Of a DNA stretch of 64,000 bases, positions 15,047 to 59,091 are shown in pieces. The translations under genes and the position numbers were made by a program. This stretch comes from Cliona cf. orientalis (taxonomy: Eukaryota > Porifera > Demospongiae > Clionaida > Clionaidae). Each line of letters begins with the position of its first letter. Within the stretch, counting starts at the first letter, position 1. Below the pieces are notes generated by a model. The model was given only the letters and a program-made list of their open reading frames with translations. It was not told the DNA's origin and did no database searches. The stretch is taken from contig OZ005690.1 in NCBI GenBank assembly GCA_963930775.1, forward strand, positions 3,022,225 through 3,086,224, read 5' to 3'.

Positions 15047-16291
15047 ATGGCAATCCACACCGGTGGATATGATTGCGAATTTGTTGAAACACCACCAAAG
15101 GTAGTTCAAACTGAGTGCCCAGTCTGCCTACAGATCATTCAAGAACCATACCAAGCTGACTGCTGTGGATACGCATTCTGTCGAGAGTGCATCGGACGAA
15201 TCAAAATGGACAGCAAGTGTTGTCCATGCTGTAAGGCCGAACAGTTTAACACGTTTGAAGATAAGAGACTGAAAGGAACACTCTACGCATTCAAAGTCTA
15301 TTGTACTAACAAGAGGCAGGGGTGTCAGTGGGAGGGAGAGCTAAGCCAACTGGATAACCATCTCAACTCAATTCCATCACACGAGAATCAGCAAGAGGGA
15401 TGTCAATTCAATGCATCTATGGCTCAGGACTTTTCCAACGCTCTGATATTCAAGTCCATCAAGATCTGCACTGTCCCAAACGACCCTATAGCTGTAAATA
15501 TTGCAAGGATTACGTCTCGATTTTTGAAGATATCACCACCAATCATTGGCTTGAGTGTGGCTACCATCCAGTACAATGCACGAATAGGTGCGGAAAAACT
15601 ATCAAACGTCAAGAGCTCCACGATCATATTTCTAAAGACTGTCCACTGACACTTCTTGATTGTGAGTTCAGTCATGTCGGCTGTGAAGCAAAGCTCCCTC
15701 GTAAAGACATGGAAGCACATCTTGAGGATAATGTGGTCATTACAGGCAGCAAATTACAAAGCAGTTGTCAATCGGTTACACAGGGAAAATGAAGAGCTTA
15801 AACAAGAAGTGGGTAGGCTGACTCAGGACTTGCAACAGATATGCATTCCGATATGTCCACCAGTATTCACAATGGATAAATTCAAGCAACGTAAGAGAGA
15901 TAATGAAGTGTGGTATTCCCCGCCATTCTACACTCATCATAAAGGATACAAGATGTGTGTGGGAATTTACGCCAATAGCTACGGTGAACATAAAGGTGCA
16001 TACACTTCAGTTAGTGTCCATTTAATGAAGGGAGAGTTTGATGATGAACTTAAATGGCCATTTTGAGGTCAAATTACTGTCAGGCTACTTAGTCAGGTAG
16101 ATACGGATTATAAGGAATTTAAATATGCCTTCATCAAAACTCTGCCGGATTATAACACCATAAGTAATAGGAAATTAAAAGGACAAATTGGACGAGGATT
16201 TTGTGACTCTGTCTCACATACTGAGCTGCAACCACAGTATCTCAAACATGATTGTCTCAAACTAAGTGTGCACCAGTATCTACGATTTTAA
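15047..16291 (+). pseudogene. RING-TRAF lineage C copy, two frameshifts and a nonsense codon
   Basis: Full-length duplicate of the 5102 gene. The RING and first zinc finger are intact for about 120 residues. Then a 10 bp deletion near 15408 shifts the frame. An 11 bp deletion near 15737, between two GTCA repeats, restores it (21 bp in total). The CGA after KWPF is TGA at 16064. The last part reads to the same C-terminal end (VHQYLRF) at 16291. A short RING-bearing product of 200 residues could still be made, but the gene is best called broken. Confidence 0.88.
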
Positions 16292-37708: not shown

Positions 37709-40700
37709 TAGTCTCGTGCCCAGACCCCACCCTCGAGGAGGAAAAGGGGTAATGGAATTTCGCGGCCTTATGGCCTTTGGCGCATGGCGCTATGGCCTGG
37801 CCGTATGGCCTTATGGCCTTACGGCCACGTACGGTACGGAGCTCGAGAACGAGTTTCGAATCCCAGCTGCAGCCCCATGCTAACTGGCGCTAGTCTGGCG
37901 AGCTAGCCTCTCCTAGCTCTCTCCTTCGCGCGTGCAAGAAGAGAGGAGGGGCTAGCTCGCCAGACTAAACTGGCGCGTGCATATAACTCGCCAACTTAAA
38001 CCTCGCAAAAATTAATAATAATTTTTAATCATTGCGCACGCTTTTAATAACGATAAATCACATGATAAATAAATTCCAATGCAATGATAAACCAAGTTCA
38101 TCCTACACCAAGTTAAATATGCAATTTGAAGTCATTAAGCAGCACTTGTTTGAGCGAAATGGGAATGTTGCATCCAATTTGAATATCTCTGATGTCTTCC
38201 GGAAATTGGTAGGAACACCGCTGTAGAACACAGCTTGCTTTGATGTGATAATACTTGTTCTGGTAGCTTCCAAGCTTCCATTGGCAGCCTTCTGCAGGGT
38301 ACCAGTCTCGTTCGAGATGGCCTAGCACAAAGTCAGGTATAACTGCACCCATTTCTCTAAAGAAATGACCACACCCTGAACACTTTTTAATCCTATTGTT
38401 TAGTTGTGAGATGTAGAATGGTTTTTCGGACTTAATTGTTGCTGGTTTTGGTGGGTAACTTCGGCCTGTCCTAGAAACACTGGATGCCAATAGTGGAGTG
38501 AGAGAACTAATCAGGGATTGAAGAGTGAGCTGAGGCTGTGTAGCTATAGGTGATGAAAGAAGAGAGCTCAGTGGTGATGCATACACGTTATTATGAGTAG
38601 ACACTAAAAGTGGGGACTGGGATGTTGTGAGGTTGACCATACATTTTCCAACATTGCTTGCACTAGAGCAAAACTGATTGCTGCCTAGTGTACCAACCAC
38701 TTGTGATGTACCCATTACATTTGGACCTGTGGCTGAAGACTTGGAATGTGTATATGGCTGAGGAAGTCGGTTTTGTGTACCTTCTAGTGGGATTAGATTA
38801 TTGGTAGTATCACGTGCATGGTCAATTGGAGCACTAGACTGCTTTGCATTGGTTGAAGTAGTGGTGAATGGTGTGCTGGTTGGAAAAAGTGTTGTATGAC
38901 CACTACTGTTTGCTCCACCCATTGCCACTTCATTGATTATGTGTTCATCAGAGATGCACGACATTGTGTTTGTAGCTGTTTTAGCATAGCAGTGCTCATT
39001 TTGAAGCCTTGTAGTATCTGCATTAGAAATATCAGTGAGTGGAATTCTATCTGTCTTTTGATCCAATGGTAGGTGCACTGCATCACCATACTTTCTCCTA
39101 GGAGGCTTTTTCTGCCCTGCATGCTTGTATGTCCCATGGTAAACGGCCTTAGTGAGATTTGTACTGCAAGGATTTTTTGTGGTACGAAACCAGATGAGAA
39201 AGTTTTTCAGTTCCACATCCTCTTCAGCTACAGCTAAGCAGTGCGCACATATGTTCCTACTTTTCCACCCCACACATTGCTTGTCACACATGTACCTTCC
39301 TGTATTAGTCTTCGATTTGGTGACTATATGTGGTGAAGGTGATGAGTCACTAGAAACCCACCATACATTATTTCCATCAGATCCTGGGGCCTTCAGTACT
39401 TTCATTTCACTCAATAGTCGAGATGCTTTGGACCATAGCGACTGCAACTCGCCATCAGAGAGTGTATTGTTGATAAATGTGTATGGTATAGACAAATTCC
39501 TTCCTGATTTGACTACAGTTTGTGATTCATTTAACAAGGATCTGGACGTTGTTGAAGTATCACTAGACTGCAATGTAGAATGAAAAGAGTTCACAGCTTC
39601 AACTTTGTCTACATGAGACATCACCCCAAACCAGTTGTCAGCATTAACTCTCATACTGCTGTAGTTAGCAGCTAAACTCCATCTACCAAGTCCCAAAATG
39701 GCTTTGTCAACTTCATTTTGTTGCTCTTGTACACACTCCTCCAAGTCATTCACAAACTGAAGTACATCTTGTTTTTGGAAATTGACGTAACGCTTGATGA
39801 TAGCATTCACAGATTCTGAATTGTTTTGAGTATATTTTTCCCCACCCACTCCCAAACTCTGGAGAAGTTCTGTGTTCATGTTGTCGCGGATGATGGGAGC
39901 TACATGTAACCGAAACCACTTGAATATTTTAGGAGTAGTGATATTATGCTGCTTCTCCAGTGTCTCCCAACGCTTTTCTAGCACACTTAATTTGGCATCA
40001 AATTCTCTAGCTGTAGCATGAATCAATCCTCTTTCAGACGTGGTGCCAAATATGTCTCTCAAAACATCCTTTACCATAGCATCTGGGAGAAGCATTTTGC
40101 GGAGATGATCTGTAATATTGTCCTTGAGATGATTTGCACACCTTAGATGCACAGCAAATGGGAAGGCTTCTGAAGCAGCATTGGTGATAGCTTGTTCTCC
40201 GTCAGTTCCATATACCTTCAAGTTAGTAGCCAATGATGGTTTCCTCCTAGTTATTTCAGTAAACAATGCACGAAAATTCGAGTGATCTTTTGAGGAGTGA
40301 ATGAGTGTGGGTCCAATCATAATGGGATGGATGCCATTGTCAGTGATGACTTTGAGATTTTGGTACGTGCATACTGTGACGTAAAAAGGACCCAGGTTGA
40401 ACGTTACATCGATTCCAAGCACACTAGTTTTTCCTTGTTGAGTGCAAAACTGTTCAATATCATTAATTTGTGTATCATTAAAAAGTACTATGGTTGGATC
40501 GGGAACTAACTGTATAGCCTGCACAAACTGATCTCTTTGCCCATTCTGCTCCTTGAATTTCACTACTAGACTTTGCAGAGGATCTGTCGTGTTTGAAGGT
40601 GTATTTGATACTCGTTTACACTTTACGCGGGAAGCCTGCGATGCATCTCTTGGTAAGTCACCCTCACATGTAACATTAAAAATTCCTCCTCTTTTTTGCT

Positions 40701-42936
40701 CCACCTTAAATGCTGCACGTTTTGGTGGGTGCAGCTTCACTTCTTCTTCTAGCTCTCTTAGAGTGCTGGGACAAGTACGTTTGTAAGGCTTAGCACGTTT
40801 CTTTGAGTTCCCATGTGGTTGAACATCCACTGAATGTTCAGATCCAGAAAATCTATACTGAATGAACTGAAAAATCTCCATTTTACCATGTGGATTAATG
40901 AGAGTAGAAATGTGACGCGACAAATCTGGAGATGATTTGCAGGTATAATGCCTACGAATTAAAGTATAGCACTTCTTTGATTTTGATTGAGCACTCTGGG
41001 CAAAATTTACGGTTCCATCTTTATCGAATGTTAACTTCAAGTGGTTAGTTGCAGTTTTTGTTTGCTTCCATACACCACAATCATCACATTTTATATCATT
41101 ACAATCACGTAGTTTTGAAGTGTCTACGACAAATGCACAGTTAATACTAATGTTAGCAGGGTGAGAGGAACACAAGAGATCAGCAGGGCAGTCAAGTATG
41201 GCTCGGACGGTGTGTAATGAGGATGTTCGTAACTTATTCTGACGTGAATAAATGGGTAAAGATCTATTGTTGTTGAGATACTGGATACTCTCAGCATTGT
41301 CACTGTATGTGTGCACACATGTAATACTGTTATAGTGTGTACAGGGTAGCTGATACTGAGTTGCTATATAAACTGTGAATGCTCCTAGAAGTGCTGTACT
41401 AATGTAAACTGTGCATAGTCCCTTTGAACAATAACTTCCATATTTGGAAGTGAATGAGCCCCCTGTACAAGCAGTGTGTGCACCTGCCACCCACCCCCCC
41501 CCCCCCCACCACCACCACCAAAAAAACATGCTTCAGTAATTAAGGGAGATAATATCAGATACATGTAACCACCAAAAAATCAGTACAGATGCCTATGAAA
41601 GAAATAATTATTATTATTACACTGTATCATAGTATGATCATCATGCCATATACTACAGCTACGTCAATAGTATTAGGCCACAAGGCTAACCTGGATGTGT
41701 GAGCACTGTCATGATCTTCAGAAGACTCATTTGCGTCACTTGAATCAGATTCAGAGTCCTGAGTGAGATCAATTGGCTTAGCGGGGCAAGATCCAAACTC
41801 TGATAGAATACGATCAAACCTATGCACACACGTAAGCATGACATTAAGAGGCTGCTTAATTTTTCAACACAGCTATCAGTTATGTGGAGACTCGTACATG
41901 CACAAAACAACACTGTGACAGTATTAACCAATCTGCAATGCCAAGTAGAATGATGGGGACCAGTGACAGAAATTCCCCGGAATGAACCAGCTGGTAGCAC
42001 ACAGATTTGACCAATAATTATTAAACTTACTCGTCATCACTCAGACTCTCGGAAGAGCTTGAGACTCCAGGGACATCTCGTGGTTGGCCTTTCTTCTTAA
42101 TAACAGGCCGCTTTTTAGGGAAAGAAGAGGGATTCAATTCGATCTCCTCGGATGATCTCAGCCGCCTACGCCGCCTCCTAGTTGGTGGAACTCCACCATT
42201 AGTACGGGTAGGTAGCCTTAGGGCATTACTTTCATTCCGTAGCCTACAACAAAACATATAACATTCTAAAATTACGACACTGAATAGTTCATTAGCTAGC
42301 CGGTCAGTGGAATGGTCACGGGGAGTTCTTACCTGACGTTCTCGAGGAAGCTAGTTTGGTAGTCACTGTCAGTGGCTGTTGACTCTTCAAGATCGGTTGA
42401 GGAACTATCTACATCCATGATGACAGGTAGCAGAGGAGACAACGCCAAGACGAAACACAGCAGTTGAGCTCATGATTTCCCGCGCGCGCGATTTTCGCTA
42501 ATGAATGACGTAAGGCCATAAGGCCATACGGCCAGGCCATAGCGCCATGCGCCAAAGGCCACAAGGCCGCGAAATTCCATTACCCGAGGAAAAGGGTCTG
42601 GTGAACTTGGGCAGAATCCTTGGGCCTGCGCTGAGGAATTTCCACGCGCCAATGAGATCGTAGCTTTGGCTCAGTCATATGACAAGCTTACCGCAGGAAT
42701 GCAACATCGCTATACCGTCTGTATAGCTATTCAATTTCGCCGACCAATCAGATTCAAGGTTTGCTTTACTGCCGGTTGCGGGCATGCGATCACATGCAAA
42801 CACAGCCATAGCAACCAATCAGAACCAGGCTTGTCAGCACATATGCGCATGCGTCGTAGAACGAGAACCGAGGATTCAGCCCAAGTTCACCAGACCCTTT
42901 TCCTCCTTTTGGGGGTGGGGTCTGGGGACGAGACTA
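37709..42936 (-). mobile_element. MULE (Mutator-like) DNA transposon, autonomous
   Basis: Ends TAGTCTCGTGCCCAGACCCC (left) and the complement of TAGTCTCGTCCCCAGACCCC (right), flanked by the 9 bp repeat GGTACCATA at 37700-37708 and 42937-42945. Subterminal inverted segments (about 37745-37835 and 42505-42595, with GGAATTTCGCGGCCTT) extend the terminal repeats. The right end has an extra segment of about 300 bp. It carries the DDE/SWIM gene at 38113-42418. The matching region between Sec31 and TRAF in the second block (52222-52521) has no insert. Confidence 0.9.
38113..42418 (-). CDS. MULE transposase with SWIM zinc finger and SUMO-interaction-like motif
   Basis: Four exons on the minus strand: 42418-42333, 42243-42031, 41819-41691 and a large last exon starting near 41326 or 41302 and ending at 38113. 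This gives about 1,210 residues. The N-terminus is acidic and serine-rich, then basic (PPTRRRRRRLRSSEE, a likely nuclear signal), then PIDLTQDSESDSS, a SUMO-interaction-like motif. The DDE-type domain shows SVLGIDVTFNLG, VYGTDGEQAI and NNSESVNAIIKR (D about 373, D about 442, E about 570 in the last frame). The SWIM finger CDKQCVGWKSRNICAHC follows, then Ser/Thr-rich linker and a C-terminal Cys-rich segment (CSGCGHFF). No frame breaks are seen. The poly-G start of the long frame (41529) is an artefact. Confidence 0.85.
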
Positions 42937-43088: not shown

Positions 43089-44567
43089 ATGGCGCAAGTT
43101 CAGCGGCAGGGTGGATTCGATTGTGAATTTGTTGAAAAGCCTTCAAACGCCTTCCAAAGTGAGTGTCCAGTGTGTCTTCAAGTGCTGAGAGAGCCCTACC
43201 AGACGACTTGCTGTGGAAAGAGCTACTGCCGTGTGTGTATTGATCAACTCAAAGCTGGCACGAGCAAGTGTGCTTGCTGCAACAAACCGATTAAGGATTT
43301 TCCGAATATAGGGCTGCAACAATCACTGTATGACTTCAAAGTCTACTGTGGAAACAAAAGTCAAGGCTGCAAATGGGTAGGAGAACTAAGACAGCTTGAA
43401 GATCATCTTAACAACAATCCATCGACAGAAAAACAGCTTGAGGGTTGCCAATTTGTAGACGTTCAGTGCCTTTATTGTCGAGAGCAAAGGCGTCGCTCTG
43501 CTATTCAAATTCATCAGAAAAATGATTGTCCTGAGAGGCAATTCAAATGTACATATTGTGATAGGTATGAGTCTACATATCAAAATGTTATTGATAATCA
43601 CTGGCCCATATGCCAATACCGTCCAGTTCCATGCCCCAATGAGTGTGGTTTGAAATTTTCTCGAAAAAATGTTGAGAATCACGTTGCCAATGACTGTCCT
43701 TTGACCACAATTGATTGTGAATATAATCGTGTTGGTTGCAATAAGAAGGTACTGCGCAAAGATATGAATGCACACCTTGGTGAGAATATTGCGCAACATT
43801 TATCATTACAAGCAACTGAGCAACGAAAAGTGGCAAACTCAATTAAAATGAGTAGTGACCAAAGGTCACATCACATGAAATCCCTGACAAACGGACTAAA
43901 ACTTGTCTGTGAGAACACTGCATCACATATGATACTTACGACAGATGTCCTGGTAGAACATAGTAAGAAAAAGAAAAGAAAAGACGATGCCCTGTGGGCA
44001 CTATCAATTATCATAATTGTTTTAGCTACCTTGGTAGCTTATACTTCGCAAGAGAATAGAGAAATAAAGGACCAGATCGCAAAATTGACACAAGATGTAC
44101 AGGAACTTCGAAATCATGCTTCAGTTTGTCCATTGTATATCACTTTCACAAACTTTGAGCAATTACGGCTAAAGGATGAAGCCTGGTATTCATCACCCTT
44201 CTACACACATCTCAAAGGATATAAAATGTGTTTGAAGGTCAACGCTAATGGACGTACACTCAGGGATGGTACACATAATATTGGTGTATTTTTACACCTG
44301 ATGAGTGGACAATTTGATGACGAGCTTGAGTGGCCATTTCAAGGCACTATCACCGTCCAATTATTGAACCAAAGGTATGGTGGGAAAAAAGAAAATGTGG
44401 AAATGACATATAACTTTAGTGATACTACACCACTTCAAATTACTAGGCGGGTATCGGGTAGAGAACGAGCTCTAACTGGACTTGGCTATGGTGCCTTCAC
44501 GTCTTATGCCAATCTATGGTCGAATCACCTAAAAAATGATCGTCTTGTATTTCTTATCAATTGCTAG
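43089..44567 (+). CDS. Membrane-anchored RING-TRAF protein, lineage D
   Basis: Intronless frame of 492 residues from ATG 43089 (MAQVQRQGGFDCEFVEKP). RING near residues 25-63 with CCGKSYC at the His position, TRAF zinc fingers (about 90-225), a helical linker, then KKKKRKDD and a hydrophobic helix (about 300-321, LWALSIIIIVLATLVAY). A short coiled coil (NREIKDQIAKLTQDVQELRN) and the MATH domain (about 355-492, SPFYTHLKGYKMCLKV, LMSGQFDDELEWPF) follow. Lineages A-C lack the membrane helix. The basic run before it predicts a cytosolic RING and puts the MATH domain across the membrane, or the helix may dip in and out. It is intact; the paralog at 52522 is frameshifted. Confidence 0.9.
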   Translation: MAQVQRQGGFDCEFVEKPSNAFQSECPVCLQVLREPYQTTCCGKSYCRVCIDQLKAGTSKCACCNKPIKDFPNIGLQQSLYDFKVYCGNKSQGCKWVGELRQLEDHLNNNPSTEKQLEGCQFVDVQCLYCREQRRRSAIQIHQKNDCPERQFKCTYCDRYESTYQNVIDNHWPICQYRPVPCPNECGLKFSRKNVENHVANDCPLTTIDCEYNRVGCNKKVLRKDMNAHLGENIAQHLSLQATEQRKVANSIKMSSDQRSHHMKSLTNGLKLVCENTASHMILTTDVLVEHSKKKKRKDDALWALSIIIIVLATLVAYTSQENREIKDQIAKLTQDVQELRNHASVCPLYITFTNFEQLRLKDEAWYSSPFYTHLKGYKMCLKVNANGRTLRDGTHNIGVFLHLMSGQFDDELEWPFQGTITVQLLNQRYGGKKENVEMTYNFSDTTPLQITRRVSGRERALTGLGYGAFTSYANLWSNHLKNDRLVFLINC

Positions 44568-48400: not shown

Positions 48401-49450
48401 ATGGCACGGTCACTCCAATACTATTATAACATTGTCTTTTGGACAAACTATGCCATCTATTTGCTCTACTTCATCATCAAATACCTGGTGGCACCGATAC
48501 TCTGGATACTCCTAGAGCTGGCAGACGAATCAAGGAAAGGCTCGTATGTGAAAAAAATCGTTAAATGGATACTACCCGAACGGTGGTCATCTCGTACCAA
48601 TGAACGTTTGGCAAAGTTTGCTAAAATCACCACACCCATGAGATGGGTGATACTTCAGCTATTCGGCGGGCCTCTGGGGGTCGTGGAAAGACGAGACGAT
48701 GACTACAAACCGGATAAAAGAGACAATAATGATATCCCTACTCTGTACATCAGGGACAAGAAGTTGACGTACGGAGCAATAATGGTACTATCGATGCTCA
48801 TCGTTACATTCGGGATCCTAACACTAAGCTCTGCCGTCAATCTCTCGCTGATCAGAATAACACATGTGTGCAGCGAAGATCCCAATATCTACTGCTATCC
48901 CCAGTTGATTAGCGAAGCTAATGAAACAATCGTACATCAATTTAACATAATTATAGACATTAATGAACCGATTCTCGACTGTGCATTCTGGGACAGCGAA
49001 GGCGTGTCTAGTCAAGTGACATTTGATTGTTTCCGATTTGTCTACAACGTGGATGCTTTCTTGGCGACAATGGGCGGTCTTTTGACCATTTTCACGATCA
49101 CCATGAAAGTGTCGACAGGGGTACTCTTGTGGTTGAACGAGAGCTGCAACTGTTGCACAGGATGTTGCATAAATGAAAAACACATCATTCGTGCGATTCT
49201 AGCTACTTCAGCCTCACTGATCGAGATAGCACTGGCTGCCACATGCTTTGTTTTTGGAACATCGGGGATTCTAGCTGACAGCGAGGGAAACTCAACTCTA
49301 CTTCGATTCATCGCAGAGCACGCTGTTGAAGCTTTGATCATTTTTGGCGTGGTTGCTACACTGCTCTGGCTTCCGTGGGAAAAGTATGTGCTAGAGTCCA
49401 CTTACATAATGGAACTGGAGGATGTCGACTGTCAGCTGAACTATATTTAG
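48401..49450 (+). CDS. TM349 multi-pass membrane protein, unknown family (block 2)
   Basis: Intronless frame of 349 residues. About five hydrophobic segments: residues 14-38 (YAIYLLYFIIKYLVAPILWI), 125-147 (AIMVLSMLIVTFGILTLSSA), 228-252 (FLATMGGLLTIFTITMKVST), 268-292 (ILATSASLIEIALAATCFVF) and 311-331 (VEALIIFGVVATLLWLPW). The loop between the second and third has four Cys (HVCSED, YCYPQ, LDCAFW, FDCFRF) and an NETI glycosylation sequon, so it is probably extracellular. A Cys cluster (CNCCTGCC) follows the third segment and could be lipidated. I do not recognise the family. It lies on the opposite strand within what would be the intron after Sec31 exon 7. The near-identical copy at 58042 and open frames suggest it is expressed. 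Confidence 0.8.
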   Translation: MARSLQYYYNIVFWTNYAIYLLYFIIKYLVAPILWILLELADESRKGSYVKKIVKWILPERWSSRTNERLAKFAKITTPMRWVILQLFGGPLGVVERRDDDYKPDKRDNNDIPTLYIRDKKLTYGAIMVLSMLIVTFGILTLSSAVNLSLIRITHVCSEDPNIYCYPQLISEANETIVHQFNIIIDINEPILDCAFWDSEGVSSQVTFDCFRFVYNVDAFLATMGGLLTIFTITMKVSTGVLLWLNESCNCCTGCCINEKHIIRAILATSASLIEIALAATCFVFGTSGILADSEGNSTLLRFIAEHAVEALIIFGVVATLLWLPWEKYVLESTYIMELEDVDCQLNYI

Positions 49451-52521: not shown

Positions 52522-54038
52522 ATGGCGCAAGTTCAGCGGCAGGGTGGATTCGATTGTGAGTTCGTTGTGAAGCCTCCAAACGCCCTCCAAAGTGAGTGTC
52601 CAGTGTGTCTTCAAGTGCTGAGAGAGCCCTACCAGACGACTTGCTGTGGAAAGAGCTACTGCCGTGTGTGTATTGATCAACTCAAAGCTGGCAAGAGCAA
52701 GTGTGCTTGCTGCAACAAACCGATTAAGGATTTTCCAAATATTGGGCTGCGACAATCACTGTACGACTTTAAAGTCTACTGCGGAAACAAAAGCCAAGGC
52801 TGCAAATGGGTAGGAGAGCTAAGACAGCTTGAACGGATCATCTTAACTACAACCCATCGACAGAAAAACAGCTTGTGGGCTGCCAATTTGCAGACGTTCA
52901 GTGCCTTTATTGTCAAGAGCAAAGACGTCGCTCTGCTATTCAAATCCATCAGAAAAATGATTGTCCTAAGAGGCCATTCAAATGTACATATTGTGATAGG
53001 TATGAGTCTACTTATCAAAATGTTGTTGATAATCACTGGGCCATATGCCAATACCATCCAGAGCCGTGCCCCAATATGTGTGGCTCAAAATTTTCTCGAA
53101 AAAATGTTCATGATCTTGAGAATCACATTGCCAATGACTGCCCTTTGACCACAATTGATTGTGAATATAAGCGTGTTGGTTGCAATAAGAAGGTACTGCG
53201 CAAAGATATGACTGCACACCTTGATGAGAATATTGCACATCATCTATCATTACAAGCAACTGAACAAAGAAAAGTGGCAAACTCCATTAAAATGAGTAGT
53301 GACCAAAGGTCACATCACATGAAATCCCTGACAAACGGACTAAAACTTGTCTGTGAGAACACTGCATCACATATGATACTTACGACAGATGTCCTGGTAG
53401 AACATAGTAAGAAAAAGAAAAGAAAAGACGATGCCCTGTGGGCACTATCAATTATCATAATTGTTTTAGCTACCTTGGTAGCTTATACTTCGCAAGAGAA
53501 TAGAGAAATAAAGGACCAGATCGCAAAGTTGACACAAGATGTACAGGAACTTCGAAATCATGCTTCAGTTTGTCCATTGTATATCACTTTCACAAACTTT
53601 GAGCAATTACGGCTAAAGGATGAAGCCTGGTATTCATCACCCTTCTACACACATCTCAAAGGATATAAAATGTGTTTGAAGGTCAACGCTAATGGACGTA
53701 CACTCAGGGATGGTACACATAATATTGGTGTATTTTTACACCTGATGAGTGGACAATTTGATGATGAGCTTGAGTGGCCATTTCAAGGCACAATCACCGT
53801 CCAATTATTGAATCAAAGGTATGGTGGGGAAAAAGAAAATGTGGAAGTGACATATAACTTCAATGATACTACACCACTTCAAATTACTAGGCGGGTATCA
53901 AGTGGAGAACGAGCTAAATTAAATACTGGACTTGGCTATGGTGCCTTTACATCTTATGCTAATCTATGGTCGAATTACCTAAAAAATGATCGTCTAATAT
54001 TTCTTATCAATTGCTATAATATAGGCAAATACTTGTGA
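52522..54038 (+). pseudogene. Membrane-anchored RING-TRAF, frameshifted copy (block 3)
   Basis: Duplicate of the 43089 gene with the same start (MAQVQRQGGFDCEFVVKPP) and an intact RING. A two-base insertion near 52840 (GAACGGATCATC against GAAGATCATC) shifts the frame after RQLE. From about 52870 the correct frame is open to the end at 54038, including zinc fingers, membrane helix and MATH domain. There is a small in-frame addition in the zinc fingers (KNVHDLENHI) and a longer C-tail (YNIGKYL). The middle third is nearly identical to the 43089 gene. It is a pseudogene unless the shift is an assembly error. Confidence 0.82.
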
Positions 54039-58041: not shown

Positions 58042-59091
58042 ATGGCACGGTCACTCCAATACTATTATAACATTGTCTTTTGGACAAACTATGCCATCTA
58101 TTTGCTCTACTTCATCATCAAATACCTGGTGGCACCGATACTCTGGATACTCCTAGAGCTGGCAGACGAATCAAGGAAAGGCTCGTATGTGAAAAAAATC
58201 GTTAAATGGATACTACCTGAACGGTGGTCATCTCGTACCAATGAACGTTTGGCAAAGTTTGCTAAAATCACCACACCCATGAGATGGGTGATACTTCAGC
58301 TTTTTGGTGGACCTCTGGGGGTCGTGGAAAGACGAGACGATGACTACAAACCGGATAAAAGAGACAATAATGATATCCCTACTCTGTACATCAGGGACAA
58401 AAAGTTAACGTACGGAGCAATAATGGTACTCTCGATGCTCATCGTTACATTCGGGATCCTAACACTAAGCTCTGCCGTCAATCTCTCGCTGATCAGAATA
58501 ACACATGTGTGCAGCGAAGATCCCAATATCTACTGCTATCCCCAGTTGATTAGCGAAGCTAATGAAACAATCGTACATCAATTTAACATAATTATAGACA
58601 TTAATGAACCGATTCTCGACTGTGCATTCTGGGACAGCAAAGGCGTGTCTAGTCAAGTGACATTTGATTGTTTCCGATTTGTCTACAACGTGGATGCTTT
58701 CTTGGCGACAATGGGCGGTCTTTTGACCATTTTCACGATCACCATGAAAGTATCGACAGGGGTACTCTTGTGGTTGAACGAGAGCTGCTACTGTTGCACA
58801 GGATGTTGCATAAATGAAAAACACATCATTCGTGCGATTCTAGCTACTTCAGCATCACTGATCGAGATAGCACTGGCTGCCACATGCTTTGTTTTTGGAA
58901 CGTCGGGGATTCTAGCTGACAGCGAGGGAAACTCAACTCTACTTCGATTCATCGCAGAGCACGCTGTTGAAGCTTTGATCATTTTTGGCGTGGTTGCTAC
59001 ACTGCTCTGGCTTCCGTGGGAAAAGTATGTACTAGAGTCCACTTACATAATGGAACTGGAGGATGTCGACTGTCAGCTGAACTATATTTAG
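58042..59091 (+). CDS. TM349 multi-pass membrane protein, unknown family (block 3)
   Basis: A 349-residue intronless frame differing from the 48401 copy at only two residues that I found: WDSKGV for WDSEGV, and SCYCC for SCNCC in the Cys cluster. The membrane segments, the loop with four Cys and the glycosylation sequon are as in that copy. DNA differences cluster around 58300-58320 and are mostly silent, which fits purifying selection or gene conversion. Function unknown. Confidence 0.8.
   Translation: MARSLQYYYNIVFWTNYAIYLLYFIIKYLVAPILWILLELADESRKGSYVKKIVKWILPERWSSRTNERLAKFAKITTPMRWVILQLFGGPLGVVERRDDDYKPDKRDNNDIPTLYIRDKKLTYGAIMVLSMLIVTFGILTLSSAVNLSLIRITHVCSEDPNIYCYPQLISEANETIVHQFNIIIDINEPILDCAFWDSKGVSSQVTFDCFRFVYNVDAFLATMGGLLTIFTITMKVSTGVLLWLNESCYCCTGCCINEKHIIRAILATSASLIEIALAATCFVFGTSGILADSEGNSTLLRFIAEHAVEALIIFGVVATLLWLPWEKYVLESTYIMELEDVDCQLNYI

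Follow-up and report, generated by a model that had tools for sequence, protein, structure and literature searches.

A TRAF-like protein of the sponge Cliona cf. orientalis with a predicted membrane helix before its MATH domain

TRAFs (TNF receptor-associated factors) are known as cytosolic relays that await a receptor tail. The excerpted text of PMC6158389 likewise presents the described TRAFs as cytoplasmic adaptors. A gene of the sponge Cliona cf. orientalis, here called P0001, encodes a TRAF-like protein with a hydrophobic helix between its RING-like finger and its MATH domain. This led us to ask whether the chain crosses a membrane and, if so, on which side each end lies. The gene lies in a window (the whole stretch of DNA that was analyzed) of 64,000 nucleotides, G000:C2:3022225-3086224, within an assembly of 216.8 Mb.

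Domain layout of P0001

A preliminary description of this DNA had read a RING, TRAF fingers, a KKKKRK run, a helix, a stalk, and a MATH domain in one frame. Translation and Pfam confirmed this reading, with the RING models below threshold. The features of P0001 are as follows.

43089..44567, + strand: uninterrupted frame of 492 aa, stop included in the coordinates (translation, Pfam)
43164..43280, + strand: RING-like finger, residues 26-64, with CC at 41-42, Ala at 62, and no His at 44 (sub-threshold Pfam; alignment with the TRAF6 RING)
43338..43784, + strand: TRAF zinc fingers, residues 84-232, modeled as repeated strand-strand-helix units (zf-TRAF; AlphaFold2)
43788..43967, + strand: long helix preceding the membrane segment, residues 234-293 (AlphaFold2)
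43965..43982, + strand: KKKKRK, residues 293-298, separating two long helices in the model (translation; AlphaFold2)
43989..44042, + strand: predicted transmembrane helix, residues 301-318 (hydropathy; AlphaFold2)
44043..44117, + strand: coiled-coil stalk, residues 319-343, running on from the membrane helix in the model (heptads; AlphaFold2)
44133..44561, + strand: MATH domain, residues 349-491 (Pfam, PDB sequence matches, AlphaFold2, fold search)
44412..44420, + strand: Asn442, the sole N-glycosylation sequon C-terminal of the helix (sequon scan)

The start codon has A at -3 and G at +4, which makes a good context by sequence. From there the order is RING-like finger, TRAF zinc fingers, basic run, 18-residue hydrophobic helix, coiled-coil stalk, and MATH, a layout that is unusual. 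Pfam identified the zinc fingers as zf-TRAF (E 1.4e-17) and residues 365-487 as TRAF-mep_MATH (E 3.1e-25). Of the features of the TRAF family, P0001 has the zinc fingers, a coiled coil before MATH, and a TRAF-type MATH at the C terminus.

The RING-like finger is the weakest of these domains. Its best Pfam model reached E 0.0043 and 17.3 bits, short of the cut-off of 27. A PDB sequence match aligns this finger with the RING of TRAF6. TRAF RINGs have eight zinc ligands, including a His in TRAF6; P0001 keeps the Cys ligand positions. At position 44, where TRAF6 has its His, the family has Tyr, Lys, Asn, or Ile, and His was found in none of the 26 rows with a letter there. Cys41 and Cys42 are present in 26/26 rows, Cys41 being an extra Cys. 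At position 62, P0001 has Ala, while 24/26 rows have Pro, the residue through which RINGs contact the E2. Since the His is absent and Ala62 replaces Pro, ligase activity is only putative in this family, and in P0001 it is more doubtful still.

We then turned to the hydrophobic segment. Residues 301-318, ALWALSIIIIVLATLVAY, are hydrophobic and uncharged throughout. A helix of about 21 residues had been described here; the helix stands, and its measured length is 18-20 residues. The maximum Kyte-Doolittle value over a 19-residue window was 2.34, which was reached by 25/5000 shuffles of the protein. There was no second hydrophobic segment in P0001, the next best scoring 0.77. The membrane free-energy scale used beside hydropathy had a rough weighting of our own. 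We also considered that the helix might be spliced out and rejected this, because no in-frame GT-AG pair that would remove it (donors at or beyond 43789, acceptors no later than 44388) had a passable score under a simple consensus scan.

AlphaFold2, run with 27 alignment rows, gave a mean pLDDT of 84.7 and a pTM of 0.39, at which the arrangement of domains is not fixed. The model breaks at 294-297 within the basic run (pLDDT below 50 at 294-296). A single unbroken helix, 298-343, then takes in both the hydrophobic stretch and the stalk, and MATH follows at 349-491. In the stalk, hydrophobic residues occupy 0.75 of the a/d positions versus 0.05 of the others (best of seven phases, 27 residues). 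TRAF stalks are trimeric with hydrophobic a/d positions, and P0001 probably carries its MATH head as a trimer. In Foldseek, the best 50 of 81 matches (E up to 0.001) were TRAF proteins by title or molecule name, with 9ogv and 9olb assigned by their molecule names in the PDB sequence matches. Alignments ran to 207 columns, beyond MATH alone, and the longest fit with an rmsd of 13-17.

Two other kinds of frame were observed in the window. A long frame at 38113-41529 (- strand) weakly matches a MULE transposase (E 8e-6), its 26.7 bits lying below the cut-off of 27.6. A 349-aa protein is duplicated at 48401-49450 and 58042-59091, the copies differing at two residues; the first copy has four hydrophobic segments above 1.8 and no Pfam match.

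Recurrence of the helix among TRAF-like loci

P0001 has a tandem copy in the window.

52522..54038, + strand: tandem copy, in two frames, its length differing by two bases near residue 104 (blastn, alignment)
53433..53486, + strand: membrane helix of the tandem copy, identical to that of P0001 (alignment)

The two-base difference splits this copy into two frames. The paralog had been described as frameshifted and as having the same helix, and both points held: over the 90 residues that surround the helix, the copy matches P0001 exactly. The blastn similarity between the copies begins 23 to 28 bases 5' of the start codon (43066 versus 52494) and extends in blocks beyond the gene to 49728/59359; upstream, blastn at E 1e-20 found no similarity. 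Only one base differs in the 479 bases of 43842-44320 versus 53286-53764, while DNA identity is 93-95% at residues 1-100, 120-260, and 401-490. This near-identical tract inside more divergent coding flanks suggests gene conversion across the helix, the stalk, and the start of MATH. Outside the tract, dN/dS of the copies was about 0.12-0.29.

Lineages A-C in the window had been said to lack the helix, and we saw it in none of the neighboring TRAF genes. The long frames at 546, 2525, 5102, 7781, and 11921 contain nothing comparable (highest value, 1.23), and in the broken gene at 15047 the linker stayed below 1.06. The gene at 546 is the best-scoring full-length relative of P0001 outside the tandem pair (46% identity), and it has a charged coiled coil where P0001 has the helix.

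We therefore surveyed the assembly. The 141 matches to P0001, which came from scoring the best candidates, grouped into at least 86 loci. The scan covered, in frame, the stretch from zinc finger to MATH, or 600 bases past the fingers where MATH was unmatched. At least 95% of the stretch was covered in 44/86 loci, 50-95% in 41, and 48% in 1. Among the first 30 TRAF loci fetched, the 27 without a helix had best segments of 0.63 to 1.57, versus 2.34 for P0001 and its tandem copy and 2.31 for a locus on C17 (L014). In the whole survey, a helix lies directly before MATH at 4/86 loci: P0001, the tandem copy, L014, and a locus on C7 (L086). Thus, the proposed search for helices N-terminal to MATH, applied to the sponge's own assembly, returned the same placement in paralogs on two other contigs.

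L014 is intact (576 aa), and its helix has a different sequence in the same place; 34/5000 shuffles reach its value. A search with the P0001 helix module did not return C17 among its matches at E up to 10. Hydrophobic character is thus kept on C2 and C17 despite the difference in helix sequence. The AlphaFold2 model of L014 (mean pLDDT, 83.9; pTM, 0.38) has a layout like that of P0001, breaking at 321-327 ahead of one helix at 328-381. L086 (C7:1558700-1560500) is a gene with RING, zinc fingers, and coiled coil, and its helix, at 3.15, is the most hydrophobic of the survey. It has an in-frame stop between stalk and MATH; the MATH is otherwise open and holds several sequons. Of the four loci with a helix before MATH, two are broken, the tandem copy by its frame shift and L086 by its stop. 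With 86 loci surveyed, a chance rate of 25/5000 shuffles cannot be neglected, and the case for the helix rests instead on its recurrence at one place in separate lineages. By sequence, the predicted insertion of P0001 into a membrane is well supported.

Other hydrophobic segments were seen among the surveyed loci. Weaker ones were found in L029 (C1, 1.97) and L030 (C10, 1.73), where the TRAF frames are short or broken, within 600 bases past the zinc fingers. Three of the 86 loci lack MATH and end in a very hydrophobic C-terminal helix: L087 (C2:5119700-5121300), L088 with L140 (C2:5077300-5078650), and L089 (C2:5087700-5088400). Such tails resemble those of tail-anchored proteins. The tree described below joins L087 and L140 as sisters (support, 100/99). 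The TRAF-like locus L096 (C2:4182350-4182950) has a terminal Gly/Ala-rich hydrophobic stretch (2.03) followed by a Ser/Lys tail. The remaining loci had segments of 1.57 or less.

Some TRAF-like loci on C2 (L090-L093 and L105, at 3.99, 10.72, 5.38, and 5.56 Mb) lack MATH and have instead a C terminus that looks like an RNA recognition motif. RRM_1 was tested in two of these five and matched at E 4.4e-11 (L091) and 2.9e-4 (L090). Across the assembly, MATH matches that pass the Pfam cut-off number at least 150, many of them in arrays. In the excerpted text of PMC8195603, TRADD-N expansions are placed in organisms without a corresponding MATH expansion. With the query A1, 12 pattern-matching stretches in prokaryote contigs (genome_contigs) and 113 in viral contigs (viral_contigs) yielded none that was confirmed.

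We asked whether the helix had a single origin, using a 29-row tree built from the RING and zinc fingers. There L086 groups with C2 genes in a starred clade, away from P0001 and L014. A single shared origin for P0001, L014, and L086 was rejected (AU p 0.0013), in a test of a group chosen after an earlier tree had been inspected and with an L086 row that has a long branch (1.32) and covers only about 170 residues. The grouping of P0001 with L014 alone was not rejected (AU p 0.23), and that pair may share an origin. Thus, the helix appears to have been gained or lost more than once, and we read its distribution as separate gains.

Orientation of the chain and competing readings

The preliminary description had placed the RING and MATH ends on opposite sides of a membrane, unless the helix re-enters. 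The basic run N-terminal of the helix agrees with this, and the single pass is a prediction. In P0001 the flank before the helix contains 6 Lys/Arg (net +2), compared with 3 (net 0) in the flank after it. Basic residues flanking a membrane helix tend to stay inside, and the more basic N-terminal flank therefore favors a cytosolic N terminus. L014 and L086 have equal Lys/Arg on either side of the helix (net 0/0 and -1/-2), so their flanks are uninformative. A cytosolic RING end with MATH outside or in a lumen is thus suggested mainly by the flanking charge of P0001.

Sequons were considered as further evidence of topology. In raw counts, the four helix-bearing loci have 8 in MATH versus 14 in 24 others (Mann-Whitney p 0.008). 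However, 6.0 were expected from composition and 490/2000 shuffles of the same composition reach 8, so the excess is not significant and we rejected it as evidence. P0001 itself has 1 against 1.43 expected. A wider C-terminal cut gives 4 sequons in the C17 gene and 4 in the C7 gene, which is not usable as proof. Judged from alignments, the tandem copy and L014 also have sequons near Asn442, within its loop; their place there is suggestive of topology at most.

Our preferred reading, which we hold with a modest lean in its favor, is that P0001 is a single-pass type II membrane TRAF acting as a one-chain receptor-ligase. The RING-like finger, the TRAF fingers, and the helical linker would remain cytosolic. 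The basic run would halt at the membrane face, and residues 301-318 would span the bilayer. On the far side, extracellular or luminal, the short coiled-coil stalk would carry the TRAF-type MATH head, probably as a trimer. MATH might there bind a ligand or a membrane partner, and such binding could cluster or select targets of the cytosolic end with its RING and zinc fingers, in the manner of transmembrane RING ligases such as ZNRF3/RNF43.

The same topology might be used in the endoplasmic reticulum or endosomes, where MATH would be luminal and P0001 a quality-control or trafficking ligase with no role as a surface receptor. Plasma and internal membranes are separated by no sequence feature that we tested, and the 18-residue hydrophobic stretch would fit a thinner internal membrane, since such membranes suit shorter stretches. 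We found nothing specific against an internal location, which we nevertheless judge unlikely. Still less probable is that the helix is only an anchor, re-entrant or monotopic, leaving both RING and MATH cytosolic. The three family loci with C-terminal hydrophobic tails, which would keep everything cytosolic, speak for such an arrangement, as do the lack of sequon enrichment beyond composition and the binding of phosphoinositides by the TRAF domain of TRAF4 (PMC3848981, in the excerpted text). However, the model shows helix 298-343 as continuous, with no turn inside the hydrophobic stretch, and there is no second hydrophobic segment to return the chain. Because of these two points, we prefer a single pass to a re-entrant hairpin.

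That P0001 is soluble, with the stretch buried in the helical bundle of an oligomer, seems to us very unlikely. Long helices do flank the stretch, the second with clear heptads, but the stretch itself is 18 consecutive uncharged residues with no heptad pattern, the gene at 546 has its charged coiled coil at this place, and similar stretches occur in separate lineages. Hardly credible is a decaying or unexpressed duplicate with a functionless helix. The tandem copy is frame-shifted and the C7 gene is stopped before MATH, as decay would have it; however, neither P0001 nor the C17 gene is broken, dN/dS points the other way, and hydrophobicity is kept on C2 and C17 in helices of differing sequence.

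Relation to known systems and significance

The TRAF family (TRAF1-6) provides the best PDB matches of P0001 by both sequence and fold. P0001 is like these proteins in its TRAF fingers, coiled coil, and TRAF-type MATH and differs in the hydrophobic helix before the stalk and the absent RING His ligand. TRAF4, which is not known to have a membrane helix, is held at membranes through its TRAF domain. It acts there via phosphoinositides according to the excerpted text of PMC3848981. No membrane-spanning TRAF appeared in the titles and abstract openings of the open-licence literature searched, and a prior description elsewhere is possible.

Meprins, astacin proteases that also contain MAM, MATH, and a transmembrane region, resemble our reading of P0001 in having a TRAF-like MATH in a membrane protein, and meprin beta is a weak sequence match (E 2e-4). 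P0001 differs in that its MATH follows the helix and a RING end is on the chain. No meprin was among the 28 matches of the C17 MATH. ZNRF3/RNF43 and the PA-TM-RING group are transmembrane RING ligases, and in the PA-TM-RING layout a PA domain is followed by a helix and a C-terminal RING. As far as the excerpted sources describe them, these ligases resemble our preferred reading in having a far-side domain, one membrane helix, and a cytosolic RING; the order is reversed in P0001, where the RING is N-terminal, and we do not claim shared descent. Pfam searches up to E 0.05 matched no astacin protease, MAM, or PA domain in P0001. Since these defining domains are absent, P0001 is neither a meprin nor a PA-TM-RING protein.

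If the chain crosses the membrane, MATH cannot bind receptor tails and must recognize something outside or luminal. The receptor step and the ubiquitin step would then lie within one molecule. Helices in separate lineages, together with tail-anchored relatives, suggest that TRAFs moved to membranes more than once here. More tentatively, and with doubt outweighing belief, we propose a membrane-spanning class of TRAFs: receptor and adaptor in one chain, with an external trimeric MATH on a coiled-coil stalk that runs on through the membrane to cytosolic TRAF fingers and RING, which would have arisen at least twice in this one genome alongside separate tail-anchored TRAFs. P0001 also bears on how meprins acquired an extracellular TRAF-like MATH. 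The meprin MATH has been argued to derive from a TRAF gene (PMC4545420, in the excerpted text), and a membrane-spanning class, if real, would provide a route by which TRAF MATH domains reach the exterior, as proposed for meprins.
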